Positions 27,116-34,514 of a stretch of DNA of 64,000 nucleotides are shown here, in pieces; position 1 is the stretch's first letter, and each line of letters starts with the position of its first letter. Position numbers and translations under genes: made by a program. The DNA is from Polytrichum commune (lineage: Eukaryota > Streptophyta > Polytrichopsida > Polytrichales > Polytrichaceae): assembly GCA_950295325.1 (NCBI GenBank), contig OX485809.1, forward strand, positions 28,644,001-28,708,000, given 5' to 3'. Under the pieces are notes generated by a model. It was not told the DNA's origin and ran no database searches. It worked only from the letters and a program-made list of their open reading frames with translations.

Positions 27116-29125
27116 CTGAAGGAGTCTTCAACATTAAGGTCATAAGTCATTTGATATCCCCCCGCATACATATGAAGATGTGAATAAGTGCAAATTGATG
27201 ACAAGACTAAATTTGATACTTTTGAGTGCTCAATAGTGAACCACAACAACAACCATACCGCAAGAAAAAAACAAATGCAATGCCAGCAATGACTTGTACA
27301 TCTTTGACACAGAATAATGAAAGCCAATGCTATCAGGTTCTAGTCTAACCACGATAATGCTTATTCATTGTCACCTTCTAGCTCATGTCACATTGATCGA
27401 TTCTCTGCCATTGTTACAATAAGGGCTGAGTCAATGGCGAGGTCAATGGGGGAAGTCACACTATTAAATTGTGACCTCTCAAAGGAAATGTCCAACAGAA
27501 GGACAAGAGACCTAGATAAAGGATTAGTTTCCTGATAAGTTGAGGTTATGAACATGAGACAGATATATGAATGGGACACACACCTATGCTGACTTGAAAC
27601 TTGCAATTACTTGTTGAGGCTCTGATTGACCGATTATGCCCAAAAATCTGCTTCCCACAGTGGGAGGCTCATTATTCTTCTTTGTTCTTTGTGCCCTGGA
27701 GATACCAAGAATTCTGTAATTTTTTACACTCTGGGCCAGTGTCAATGTTTATTGTGCAGATATTTTTGGAAACTCTGCTTCTATTCGAGAATTTGGCTGC
27801 ACAACGTCTTCCGTCTTGGTCTTTTGAAACCTCGGGAGCAAATTGTTCTAGTGAGCAAACTGGTGCTTCCTTGTTCTTGGGAAGCAAGTTGTCGGAGTTG
27901 TTGTATGTTTAGAAGGCCATAAGTAGACAACAATTCAGCCCTCTTGTGTGGGAGCAAGTTTTTGCGAGCCTAATAAGTCAGCATATGCATTGTCAAGAAT
28001 GACACATCGCACGCAGTGTTTGTTCACACCTAGCCTTGAATCCAAAAGAAACTGCGAGCATTCATTGGTCCCCCAACTTGCATCACTATATGTGTTTATT
28101 GAACGTACATGGCCATGCCTTTCATGGTTCTTGGACCATCTATAGATGATTTTCCTTTTTCCTGACATGTTCGCACCTTGACTTTGGCGTGAAATCAAAT
28201 TGTTCCTTTTCCATGTGTGTTAATAGGGTTCTTTGTTAAGCGATGGATGACATCGTGGATTTGAGCGAGAGCTCACAATGTCCATCTACTCAAGTGCCCA
28301 TTGACGTGAATTTTGGCTTTAGGTCGGAGTTTCTGGACAACCAAACATTGGCTTCCTCTATGCCAACCGCTACAAAACGAGGTGAATCAAATACTGCACA
28401 ATCATTGTCGGTTCCATCGGTATCACAAGCTGCACTTCCCCACAAGGTTTGAGGGCCCAACTGGACTGAGGCGGAGATGCTTGTCCTCATTGGCCAAAAA
28501 CATATAGAATGGGACGGGAGGCACAATTCCAATCATCCTTCTCTTGCCAAATTTGTATATGGAACCACGGCATGGAAAATGGTCTTGGCGAGATGCATGA
28601 GTGTGGTGGGTTTCGGGGTTAGGAATGCCGACCAAATAACCAACAAGTGGGATGGCTTGATCAAGGACTACAAAATAATCAAAGAGTACATAGAAGGGAC
28701 ATGTTCCGCCAATTGGTGGGGGATGAGTAGGGATGAGGAGAAAAAATTGTCCAAAACTAGAAAAATGTCATTGGAGTTTAGTGAGTCTATGTACATAGAA
28801 ATGGAAGGCTTTGTTGGGAAGAGACAAATTTTGGACCATACAACGGATGTGGTGGACTCCAATAGGTTGACTCCGCCGGTTGCAAGGCATTTTGGTCACT
28901 CCCCTCCTACTCCACATGTTCCTTATGTTGGAATGGAAAGCCCTGCGACTAGTGCCGCGACTGCACCCGAGTTTCCAACGGAGAGAACGCCCAAAGACAA
29001 TATACATGGCTCAACATGCCGAAAGTGGAAAGCCGTGGGCACTGACAACTTGGTGGACTTTCTCAAAAATTTCATTTACGAGTACCTTGCACATACAGAG
29101 ACACAAGACAAAGACAAACGCGTTT

Positions 29126-31255
29126 CACTAGTAGAAATTATGCGTCCGGATCAACAAAAAATCAACAAAAAGGCGTTGGTCGCGGTTGTTACTTAGGACG
29201 CGTTGACCTGGACATGATGTAACACAGTTTTGTTGATTTTTTCTGTTGATTTGGTCACAAACTTTTTTTAAAAAAACTTTTTTAATTTATATATATATAT
29301 ATTGCTCAGACGTCATTTAATTTAATTATATATATATATATATATATATCATTAAAAATTATACGTGGATGCTTGGTAGGTCCGCACCTTCTAACCCCTT
29401 CCAAGTAACCCTCAACCTATACACCACCTTCAAGGATAAATTACCCATCACTCACCTAGGTGGTAAGGCCAAGGGTGGCGGCCAAGGGGTTCGAACCTTG
29501 CACCTAGTGACACCCACACATGTGCCTTCACCACTACGTCATCACATCACATATGACATACATGGAGTGCTTCAAACCTTTCTAGACTAAGGCCACTATT
29601 TTCTCTCTACTACCTACTTGATGTATATATTTATTGTAAATATATACTGTAAATATTGGGAATTGATATTTCTACATCTTTTTTAGCTAGATTCACATAT
29701 TTTTGCCGGTTCGGTTGTTATGTCACTGAGGCGCTATATATGAGATTCTTCGTGGTGCATCTGGACCGTTGATCCACCAAGGGCCTCAATGATCCTAGGT
29801 GGCGGTGGGATGGGGGGCGGGGGTGGTGCTTGCCACCAAGGCGGGGTGGGGCCGTGGGCCTCATGTCTTTTTTGGGAAGGCCGGATTTAGGGTGGTATCG
29901 GGCCTAGTGGCTAGGTGGGCCCAGTGGCTAGGCCTACTTATTATATAACTAGTTGGTTACCTTTACTCTACTTACTAAATGACTAGTTGGTTACCTTTAT
30001 TCTACTTACTAAATGACTAGTTGGTTATCCTTCCTCTACTTACTAAATGACTAGTTGGTTACCCTTCTTCTACTTACTAAATAACTAGTTGGTCATTTTT
30101 ACTCTACTTACTAAATAACTAGTTGGTCACTTTTACTCTACTTACTAAATAACTAGATGGTTACCCTTACTTGGTATTTTGATAGACTATCATATTACAA
30201 CCATTGCAAAGAAGAAGACTATCCACAATCATATAGCATAGAATTACAACATAATAGTACTGTCATTAGAGGTATTACATTTCCGGATGAAAATATTCGA
30301 TTTGCTTGACAATAGCGATGATACATAAATTATGTAATATCATGTCATACCTATTTGTTTCATATCATACCATAAGTAGGCTAGTTTGAAAATTAACCAT
30401 TTAAGACCCATCTACATTAAGAGTAAGGCTAACCAACTAGTTATTTAGTAAGTAGAATAAGGCTAACCAACTAGTCATTTAGTAAGTAGAGTAAGGCTAA
30501 CCAACTAGTCATTTAGTAAGTAGAGTAAGGCTAACCAACTAGTTATTTAGTAAGTAGAGTAAGGCTAACCAACTAGTTATATAATAAGTAGGCCTAGCCA
30601 CTGGGCCCGTCTAGCCACTAGGCCCGATGCCACCCTAAATCCGGCCTCCCAAAAAAGACATGAGGCCCATGGCCCCACCCCGCCTTGGTGGTAAGCACCA
30701 CCCCCGCCCCCCACCGCCACCTAGGATCATTTTGGATGCACCATGAAGAATCTCATATATAGCGCCTCAGTGATACGGCAACCGAACCGGCAAAAATGTG
30801 TGAATCTAGCCAAAAAGGTGTGGAAATATCAATCCCCTAAATATTTACTGTATATATTTATAGTAAATATTTACTAAATATTTATTGTATATATTTACAT
30901 TAAATATTTACTATATATAATATATTGCCTTTCTTTACTATATATTTACTGTATATATTTATTGTATATATTTACAGTAAATATTTATTTTTTTATAAAT
31001 ATTTATTTACTATATATATTTATAATAAATATTTAATATAAATATTCTAGAATATTTCTAAAAGATTCTAAAAGATTCCACATTTACTGAAATTTTGTTG
31101 ATTTGGTCATTGTACTATTCAGATCAACAAAAAAGTAGGCAGCAAACTGTTGATTTCTACAAAAATTCAAAAATCAGTGAAATCGGTCATTGCAGTGCCG
31201 GATCAACATAGATCTGTTGATTTTTTGTTGATTTGGTCATGATTTTCTAGTAGTG
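29126..31255. mobile_element. Non-autonomous CACTA-type element inside the trihelix gene
   Basis: The left end is CACTAGTAGAAA and the right end is its near-inverse TTTTCTAGTAGTG. Both are flanked by TTT (29123-29125 and 31256-31258), the 3-bp duplication expected of CACTA (En/Spm) elements. Sub-terminal zones repeat GTTGATTTGGTCA or its inverse. No transposase is present. The interior is dominated by a long inverted repeat (29620-30870). Deleting the element and one TTT copy rejoins the trihelix frame exactly. Confidence 0.85.
29620..30870. repeat. Long inverted repeat with 34-bp tandem units in both arms
   Basis: The left arm (about 29620-30165) and right arm (about 30425-30870) are inverse copies over about 450 bp or more, including TTTTTGCCGGTTCGG with its inverse and the GGCCTAG.. 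blocks. Near the loop each arm carries tandem 34-bp units with ACTAGTTGG: starts at 29948, 29982, 30016, 30050, 30084, 30118 and 30152 on the left. CCAACTAG starts at 30433, 30467, 30501, 30535 and 30569 on the right. The outer right flank is rich in TAAATATTTACTGTATATAT units (30830-31050). A transcript would fold into a very long hairpin. Confidence 0.85.
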
Positions 31256-31474
31256 TTTGGAGGAGTGAAGTGTTGGTATTGGATACGGCACGTGAAGGAA
31301 GAATTATACAAAAAGAAGTACAAGTTGTGAGCATAGATCAAAAAATTTATGAATTGAAGGTGGAGAGGACAAAAAAATTGGGAAATTTAACTAACAGTTT
31401 GTTGATGTTGGCGTCGTTTATGGATGTTGTTACAAGGTTTTGTACTCCACCATCCTCCTTTGAATTTTAGCTTA

Positions 31475-33204
31475 TTCTTAAGGTCTTGGTCTTCTTGGAT
31501 GTCTTGCTATATAGTTGGCATTTTGGATACGTACTAGATAATCTAGAAAATACTCATTTGCCATCTTTCCTTCTAGCAAGGTTTTTTCTTCATTCATAAG
31601 GTCCATTGGTCTTGGGGATTGAAAGACATTTTCTTCGTATCTTTGTAGCAAGTTATTGTCGTCCATTGGCGGAAGATGATAATCTTCCAAAATTTGATCC
31701 AATGTCCGGTCATTGCTAGTAAGTAGTATGTTGTATAAGACACAATAACAATGAACAACCGTATGTAGAAAATCGAGTTTTAAGAAGGATTTCGTTCCAA
31801 TCTCTTTGAATCTTGCTTTAAGTATGTCAAATGTTCGTTTGACGTTCGTTCACTTAGTTGAGTGTTTTTGATTGAACCAAACCTTTTTTTTAAAGAGACA
31901 ATCCCATAGGTCTCATCTTGTATGACGTAATACACCAACTCAAAAGAGGGTATCCACGGTCCGCCACAATGTATGAAAGACTTGAAAAACCTACCGGCCA
32001 AATTAATGGATCATCATAAAACCTACTCATAATTCCCTCTTTTATTTTTTGGTATAATTCTGTGGTTCAAAGTGTATGATATCATATAAGGATCCTGGCG
32101 GTCCAGTGTTAATAGATATAAAATAACATTTGCTATCTACAACACCTTGTGGTAGAATAAAAAATTATTTGTGTTGGTTGCGGTGATCAGCTACCACAAT
32201 GGTATTTGATGGCGCCGCAATATAAATATGTGAGTCGTCTATAACACCAATACAATTTGGCATCCACTGCTTGGCTTGGAACGCAGACGTGATTTTAGCC
32301 AACCTTCAGCTTACCGACCAAGCAATGAGATGTCCAAAATTATTGCTTATGACTGAGCACATTTGTCGAATAATCTTATGTACGGTATATTTGTCTAATG
32401 TTGTTTATTCTGCAACCAGATATATAGAGACACCATGCATAAGCTTGAAAAGCGTGACTACCATTTTTTTCTCCACTCCAATTGATTGTCTTTAATGTAT
32501 ATGTTGTCCTTGTATGAACAGTCGAAGGTTATGTACCAATATGTTAAAAGTCTTCTTCCTCATTCGCAAGATGTCATAAAATATATCCGAGGTTTAGATG
32601 TTGAAAAATAATTCTTTAAACCGTCATGTGGATCTAGGTTAAACATACCATTTAGCATCCACATTACTATTATGTCAAACAAGAAAGTCAAAAAAATTTG
32701 CTTCTCATGTAGGTGTTCTAATGGATCCTCCTCGGACTCATGTCTTTCCAATGTTTTATGCATTGGGCCAAAACCATCGTAATCAACCTTACTTTTCAAA
32801 AAAATTCTATATGCAATATGAGCTTCATTTGTCTCCGTTAATGTAATGTATATGTGTATCATAATTACAAACATGTCGATCATTGTTATCACAATGAGAA
32901 TGACGGAGACAATATCTAATGTGGACATTGACCTTTGATGCAGTGCGAGATGTAGGGGAATGTTGGTGGGTCCGCCGCAACGGAACAATGGTGGAATACA
33001 TGGAATCGTTGGTGGTGATTGAGGTGAAAATCGTGTGCCGACAAAAAACTCCCCTTGAAGGACAAAAAGTGTCGGCATTGAAAGTGGAGTTGGGACCTCG
33101 AGCTCATAAGGAAAAAAATCAAGAGGTGGAAAATACACAGAGAAAAAATCTAGTTCGGAGTCGGATTGAACTATCTCTTCTTCACGTGATTCTGCAACCT
33201 TCAA
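31475..33204 (-). pseudogene. PIF/Harbinger DDE transposase, decayed
   Basis: Read on the minus strand from 33204, the N-terminal open piece runs to 32560 and ends near 'DPHDGLKNYFSTSKP'. The frame then shifts into segments resembling 'VEKKMVVTLFKLMHG' (near 32450). 'NCIGVIDDSHIYIAAP' (32215-32262) follows and contains the first catalytic Asp, then 'VVADHRNQHK' and 'GPPGSLYDIIHFEPQ' (near 32060-32110). The C-terminus has 'TFDILKARFKEIGTKSFL' and 'VVHCYCVLYNILL' (31730-31840), and the last piece is 31478-31702. The order matches DDE_Tnp_4 transposases. Where relatives have V-E-R-A-F before the 'LKARF' helix, this copy reads V-K-R-T-F, so a catalytic glutamate appears changed. Multiple frameshifts make it inactive. 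It lies tail to tail with the trihelix gene. Confidence 0.8.
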
Positions 33205-34514
33205 TTACAAAAAATATGATTAAGGTTACATATCAATGTATATTGGAGCAATGTACGTAACATTATGCACAAAATATGAATTACTGTCATAGTGTTGGCA
33301 TTTTGATTTTGAATAGCTTTCAACAGACACGGAAATGGACTTTAATGTGACGCCAAATCATAGTTAGAAATGAAAGTCATCTTAAATGTCATTGGAAGTG
33401 GTATGTGAACTTCAACATTGTTTTATGTTTTCATGTGAGCTCCTACATGGATCTCAATGTCAATTTAAGTTGTGAAGTTGTTAGGTGATTTAAGACCAAA
33501 ACCAAATTGTTTCACAATCAATTTAGAAGTCATGCCAAATGGCATTCGAATTGAATGTGAAGATGTTTATATATTATAATTATATGCATGAAAAACAATG
33601 TGTTTCTCACGTTGCCGACAAAGACGAAAGAAAAGTAAAAGTAAAGCAAGACAACCGTGAAACTGTGGAATTTAGAAAAAAAAAACCTATAACTACGTGC
33701 ACTTGTGGATGAAGTTCTCAAAATTCCAAATCAACCTCGGCCAACCTCTTCCTAACGACATCAAAAGGGTTGGACATCGCAATGAGGTTATCGCGCCGTG
33801 GCAAACTATCAAAGCCAGCATCACCGTCATGGACCATGAACAAAAGCGAGCGGCCCAACTCATGCGACTCCAAATCTTATTCAGAGTCGAACCGAAGCAT
33901 GAGAGCTCGGAGATTGGTGCAATCTTCTTGCAACTCCCACTTGTACATCTCCACAAGAGAAAGAAGTTGCATGCATGTGATATAGATCACATGATGGGAA
34001 GGAAGAAGCAACCGAACATGACAGCGCCATACAAGTTGCCATGTGCAAACACAACCATTGCGGAAACCTCAAAAAACAACACACAACATCCATGCACATA
34101 AACTTCCAACGAAATAAAATAATAAATAAATTTGGATTGACGAAATTCGGTCTCATGTCGCAATGAGTGTGAATAGTGAGCATAGCAAAACATCTTGTAC
34201 CCTTGCCAATAATCCTCCACCCTACACACATATTTCCGGAAGTTGATGAACCAAACATTCATACATGTGAGCATGATGAAGCACTTCCAAAGCACGCTAC
34301 CAACGACCGAGTGATTCCGGATACAAAAATGGCGAACCAACCCATGGTATGCCAGCCATTAGCTTCGAGAGGTGGATTGACCAAGACGAGGTGGATTGAC
34401 TTGCGAACATGGGTGGGACTTGAAACTCCATGTGAACTTATTGATGGATAGAGTAACCGCAATTCAAAGATATGCAAAGTAGAAAGGCATTTGAATAAGG
34501 CAGATGGGTCTTTA
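33205..34514. other. Flanking DNA of the transposase, no gene confirmed
   Basis: Open frames on both strands at 33690-34450 overlap each other without family motifs. The minus-strand reading near 33740-33830 ('FDSLPRRDNLIAMSNPFD') looks somewhat protein-like but is not recognised. Confidence 0.4.

Follow-up and report, generated by a model that had tools for sequence, protein, structure and literature searches.

The window, a 64-kb stretch of Polytrichum commune DNA from an assembly of 407.8 Mb in 64 contigs (seven large ones of 42–78 Mb), contains at 29126–31255 a composite insert of 2130 bp, in which a 942-bp CACTA element carries a 1180-bp Mutator-like element. With the locus that it interrupts, this insert very probably makes up a nest of three layers, a PIF/Harbinger-like host, a non-autonomous CACTA element and a non-autonomous Mutator-like element, each a cut-and-paste DNA transposon type. 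The first-pass annotation had described the insert as one CACTA-type element. Its bounds, the length of 2130 bp, the termini and the TTT on both sides all proved exact, and the CACTA assignment holds for the outer ends, the 3-bp duplications, the subterminal repeats and the family copies; 1180 bp, more than half of the total, belong instead to the nested Mutator-like element. The insert and its borders are as follows:

29123–29125, unstranded: left 3-bp target-site duplication TTT; the three nearest trihelix relatives have GTTT there
29126–31255, + strand: insert, a non-autonomous CACTA element of 2130 bp with the nested element, recognised by termini, family copies and subterminal repeats
31256–31258, unstranded: right 3-bp target-site duplication TTT of the CACTA element

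The insert starts with CACTAGTAGAAA and ends with TTTTCTAGTAGTG; CACTAGTAG has a single occurrence in the 64-kb window. With the 2130 bp as a genome query, the only full-length match among the best 40 of 775 candidates, which were scored, was the place in the window itself. The partial matches among the same 40 fell into two sets, one covering query positions 1 to ~530 together with ~1900–2130, and the other ~525–1714. The 2130 bp are two elements because the segment 29658–30837 has its own ends, its own 8-bp duplication and free-standing copies; when this segment and one of the 8-bp duplicates are taken out, the CACTA copy measures 942 bp.

The locus that received the insert consists of a trihelix gene and the remnants of a second gene:

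28243–29125, + strand: 5' part of the trihelix (Myb/SANT-like) frame of a decayed PIF/Harbinger-like locus (PF13837), with an in-frame TGA at 28450–28452
31259–31470, + strand: 3' part of the trihelix frame, with its stop at 31468–31470
31478–34365, − strand: remnants of a decayed DDE transposase, tail to tail with the trihelix gene, recognised by homology and by DDE_Tnp_4 in relatives

A search with the 5' part of the trihelix frame returned 47 matches at 40 scored places including the window (of 99 candidates). Twenty of the other 39 places were fetched, in each of which a match extended at least as far as query position 870 (of 881); another 11 matches that extended so far lie outside the fetched set. 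All 20 relatives, which are paralogous copies and not alleles, align with the joined window sequence over the junction that the first-pass annotation had predicted, and all 20 lack the insert. The order given there, Harbinger first and CACTA second, is thus correct, since relatives of the host gene cross the site uninterrupted. The target site is GTTT in the three closest relatives and differs in the more distant ones; indels of 1–2 bp lie near it in five of the 20 (L018, L019, L020, L021 and L024), and the local alignment of L022 ends early. The second-closest relative, L006, is open through the site, where it reads ...DKDKRVWKSKVLALET..., and its protein continues like that of the window; in L005, which is closer still, the junction codon itself is TGA.

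The trihelix frame of the window runs to 29125 and resumes in frame at 31259 once the insert and one TTT are removed, with ...DKDKRV before the junction and WRSEVLVLDT... after it, and continues to the stop at 31468–31470. This exact restoration of the frame, to which the first-pass annotation had appealed, was dropped as evidence and carries no weight beyond the empty-site comparison. The argument adds nothing because removing any insertion together with one duplicate restores any frame, and any insert with a target-site duplication does likewise. The window copy is a pseudogene for a second reason, since the TGA at 28450–28452 lies in frame upstream of the insert.

PF13837 is a domain found in host trihelix factors as well, which would fit a reading of the interrupted gene as an ordinary member of the plant trihelix family and not part of a Harbinger element. 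On 28453–29121 the domain scored 27.5 bits, barely over the cut-off of 27. The same reading gains from the host ends: neither inverted ends nor a 3-bp duplication of the host was found in the window or in any of three extended relatives, and comparison of L086 and L087 with each other and with the window and the three relatives revealed no Harbinger inverted ends. The endpoints of the host homology vary from copy to copy. Against an ordinary trihelix gene, however, stand the ~2.8–3.1 kb of homology that the three closest relatives share with the window downstream of the site, and the DDE_Tnp_4 matches found there in two of the relatives. The Pfam run covered eight selected minus-strand pieces from downstream of the trihelix gene, two of them from the window; the piece from L006 scored 37.9 bits and that from L005 25.6 bits (cut-off 24.8), and of the window's own remnant pieces one scored 12.8 bits, below the cut-off, and the other gave no match. 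The 40 scored places (of 99 candidates) are moreover scattered across the seven large contigs. An ordinary trihelix gene is accordingly very unlikely. The assignment of the host as PIF/Harbinger-like is supported by its two genes, the trihelix gene and the DDE_Tnp_4 gene of the relatives, and not by its ends, so that the Harbinger label of the first-pass annotation stands on its coding part, with a trihelix domain just over the cut-off, and lacks the ends and duplication.

The homology between the host and its three closest relatives breaks off abruptly at position 34365 of the window, beyond which the relatives have further sequence that includes GTTTGG or GTTCGG. This break suggests either a truncation in the window or an insertion that an ancestor of the relatives received later.

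The terminal inverted repeats of the outer element begin with CACTA, the left one reading CACTAGTAGAAA and the right end, as reverse complement, CACTACTAGAAAA. The 942-bp sequence was compared with 20 fetched relatives and is 86–92% identical to them over aligned columns. Two ends are present in 18 of the 20 (948–1370 bp), with an exact 3-bp duplication in 16 of the 18, the exceptions being L027 and L040; the stretches fetched for L032 and L043 showed no second end. Four more two-ended copies, two in L092 and one each in L093 and L094 (1719, 2680, 644 and 2424 bp, respectively), all have exact 3-bp duplications. This count excludes two cases in which ends of different copies had been paired, and also the copy in L082, which is that of L036 and had already been counted. 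The search for other copies with the same termini, proposed in the first-pass annotation, thus gave an exact 3-bp duplication in 20 of 22 two-ended copies besides the window. The two copies in L092 (G000:C6:37803400-37808600) are complete, adjoin each other and are internally enlarged (1719 and 2680 bp), each with its own exact duplication.

The motif ATCAACA/TGTTGAT occurs 5–10 times per element in all 19 elements (that of the window plus 18 copies). Every occurrence falls in the leftmost 180 bp or the rightmost 200 bp and none in the middle; mononucleotide shuffles gave 0.24 matches per element. The middle is an AT-rich tandem repeat that varies between copies, and the empty site of the inner element is for this reason unreadable letter by letter in the CACTA copies. 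A 3-bp duplication, CACTA-type termini and clustered subterminal repeats are named as hallmarks of CACTA elements in a published account (PMC8978399). The CACTA identity of the outer element is supported by its termini, the 3-bp duplication, the subterminal repeats and the family copies. The family is placed in the superfamily by structure, since none of the copies read has a recognised transposase. PF02992 transposases are abundant in the genome, with at least 150 matches (150 of 643 candidates scored), and none of these genes was linked to the ends of this family. An autonomous partner was sought in L082 and L092–L094, where just enlarged, shortened or paired copies were present; their long ORFs lay outside the Pfam search.

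The nested element and its parts are the following:

29650–29657, unstranded: left 8-bp target-site duplication TAAATATT of the nested element
29658–30837, unstranded: nested non-autonomous Mutator-like (MULE) fold-back element of 1180 bp with GGGA.../...CCCC ends (GGGG/CCCC in relatives)
29658–30105, + strand: left fold-back arm, pairing with 30420–30837
29934–30171, + strand: 34-bp tandem repeat of the left arm, 7.0 copies
30420–30837, − strand: right fold-back arm, pairing with 29658–30105
30420–30591, − strand: 34-bp tandem repeat of the right arm, 5.1 copies
30838–30845, unstranded: right 8-bp target-site duplication TAAATATT of the nested element

The fold-back arms, ~420–450 bp long, are long terminal inverted repeats, identical at 389 of 418 aligned positions with gaps excluded. 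Twenty relatives were fetched, 14 of them two-ended and 12 of these with an exact 8-bp duplication; the duplication has one mismatch in L064 and is missing in L055. The other six show one end in the stretch fetched, among them L049, which was completed as L088. Five longer copies include three with exact duplications, a 12-kb copy with one mismatch and L065 with none, and exact duplications also border L088 and both copies in L081. In all, 18 of 22 two-ended copies besides the window have an exact 8-bp duplication. A 29-base terminal pattern gave 191 exact matches genome-wide versus 0 for its reversed control.

An earlier reading took the 2130 bp as a single CACTA element with the internal hairpin as its own sequence, and it is true that the outer ends and the TTT duplication enclose the whole length and that one place alone among the 40 of 775 candidates scored matches all of it. 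That reading is refuted by the inner 8-bp duplication and by the free-standing inner copies, and retains practically no probability. The inner 1180 bp have ends of their own, and CACTA arms lie beside none of the 20 fetched relatives of the inner element (L045–L064). Conversely, the 18 two-ended CACTA copies of 948–1370 bp are too short to accommodate the inner element, and in L088 a MULE transposase is encoded between the same inner ends.

The relationship of the inner family to Mutator is seen most clearly in L088. A genome search with PF10551 returned at least 142 matches (150 of 271 candidates scored), and the best-scoring one among the candidates scored lies on C1 inside this copy of 2761 bp, which has the same GGGG ends, an exact 8-bp duplication and arms 80–87% identical to those of the window. 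Its ORF of 458 aa matches PF10551 with 85.6 bits (cut-off 27.6); the inner copy of the window itself encodes no MULE transposase. The inner family is Mutator-like, as L088 has an 8-bp duplication and encodes a MULE transposase between the ends and arms of this family. The second-best match, in L089 (80.9 bits), is situated inside one GGGG-type end, the other end being unseen in the stretch fetched; the third, in L090, has no arms, and the fourth, in L091, lies between diverged arm-like stretches. On C1–C3, 1 of 77 MULE matches has one of the listed exact ends no more than 5 kb away, versus 0.37 expected, which is uninformative, so the link to MULEs rests on anatomy, chiefly that of L088, and not on counts.

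MULEs produce target-site duplications of about 8–11 bp, and an 8-bp duplication is also a hallmark of hAT elements. For the MULEs of Aedes aegypti, duplications of 8–9 bp are given in their description (PMC5225508). The inner element might on this feature have been a hAT element, the more so as one copy, L076, contains an ORF with the hAT dimerisation domain PF05699. The hAT-type piece of L076 has, however, its own ends (AGGGCATAAA/TTTATGGCCT) with GGTGCTTGCC on either side, and L078 and L079 carry the piece without GGGG ends in the 3.7 kb examined. The transposase found between the inner ends, in L088, is that of a MULE, and no hAT transposase was found between ends of the inner family other than in the piece of L076 and L081, itself bounded by separate ends and a flanking repeat. 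A hAT identity of the inner element was rejected on the strength of those separate ends and is extremely improbable.

The hAT-type piece occupies 340–1443 of L076 (G000:C1:6463300-6465900) and 3131–3929 of L081 (G000:C1:29715300-29720100), and has at least 50 further genome matches at 92% identity or more. It lies at an identical inner position in the GGGG-ended MULE copies of L076 and L081, which have differing exact 8-bp duplications (tatttata and tagacata) and whose flanks are unrelated except for one weak 70-bp match (79%). The same inner position combined with different exact duplications indicates that this MULE/hAT composite moved as a unit after it had formed.

A 12.25-kb GGGG-ended element on C3 (L068 and L069; G000:C3:14021500-14034000) was considered as an autonomous partner and rejected, its interior being up to 97% identical to L085. 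The homology to L085 starts immediately inward of the left arm, and the 9.9 kb of L085 showed no GGGG end; the interior is most likely a separate element, with its right boundary beyond L085 as fetched. The two longest minus-strand ORFs of the 12.25-kb element match no Pfam family, and one of the two has at least 106 genome matches (106 scored of 2655 candidates). Another GGGG-ended copy, at 1588–3042 of L065 (G000:C1:44834400-44838350), has no 8-bp duplication and contains an ORF of 485 aa with the NAM-associated domain PF14303, which may be either captured or nested.

Both sets of ends, both duplications, the host site free of CACTA, the CACTA relatives too short for the inner element and the free-standing inner copies were observed directly, and the succession of events can largely be read off directly because each insertion has its own exact duplication. 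The CACTA element already existed when the Mutator-like element entered it; this entry may have come either before or after the CACTA element landed in the trihelix gene. In the proposed course of events, the decayed PIF/Harbinger-like locus, with its trihelix gene and tail-to-tail DDE transposase, would have been present first. A 942-bp non-autonomous CACTA (En/Spm-type) element would then have inserted in the trihelix frame and duplicated TTT, and an 1180-bp non-autonomous Mutator-like fold-back element would have entered this CACTA copy in its AT-rich middle, duplicating TAAATATT. Each presumably owed its mobility to a transposase supplied in trans from another locus, a CACTA transposase that would act on ends with subterminal ATCAACA-type repeats and a MULE transposase that would act on the long inverted arms.

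The alternative, entry of the Mutator-like element into the CACTA element at another place and later transposition of all 2130 bp, as one CACTA unit, into the trihelix gene, is consistent with everything in the window, and composites do move in this genome, as in the case of the MULE and hAT piece of L076 and L081. No second CACTA/Mutator-like composite was found, a weak objection with 40 of 775 candidates scored. Transport of the ready-made composite is on balance unlikely, if far from negligible.

Nested DNA transposons whose parts are all of well-known kinds are ordinary plant-genome biology. The locus is a clean worked example, in which 2.1 kb record two insertions and the exact duplication made by each. 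For annotation it matters that a naive reading yields one 2.1-kb CACTA element where there are really two, and that an abundant fold-back MULE family is thereby overlooked. Fold-back MULEs with GGGG ends (PMC4486113), or with subterminal tandem repeats and 8–9-bp duplications (PMC5225508), have already been described. A limited literature search, in which the terminal sequence was not among the queries, found no description of this particular family. It is conceivable, though we propose it with some reserve, that the inner element represents a hitherto undescribed lineage of fold-back MULEs, with a target duplication fixed at 8 bp, GGGG ends and arms of 34-bp repeats, which is widespread in the genome and has repeatedly taken in and carried other transposons.

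Each of the three layers has a counterpart among known systems, compared here with published accounts. The host resembles the PIF/Harbinger-like elements of Medicago truncatula (PMC2213677), where a two-gene locus likewise served as the target of nested insertions and empty paralogous sites as the test; the guests described there were gypsy-like retrotransposons and an element with a 5-bp duplication, whereas here they are CACTA and Mutator-like elements. The outer element is similar to Jozin of Chenopodium (PMC8978399) in its terminal inverted repeat starting CACTAGTAGAAA, its 3-bp duplication and its clustered subterminal repeats. Unlike Jozin, with which it was compared over the terminal 12 bases alone, the moss element is short, has no transposase seen in it, and possesses an ATCAACA-type motif and an AT-rich centre (PMC8978399). 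The inner family shares GGGG termini, long fold-back arms and AT-rich targets with MuTAnT of M. truncatula (PMC4486113), from which it differs in its 8-bp duplication, compared with 9 nt, and in a terminal sequence that diverges after GGGG. With Muta1 and Muta5 of A. aegypti (PMC5225508) it has in common the long fold-back arms and the subterminal tandem repeats. The 34-bp repeat unit sets the moss family apart from MuTAnT, Muta1 and Muta5, and common to all of them is a MULE transposase in a longer relative (PMC4486113, PMC5225508).
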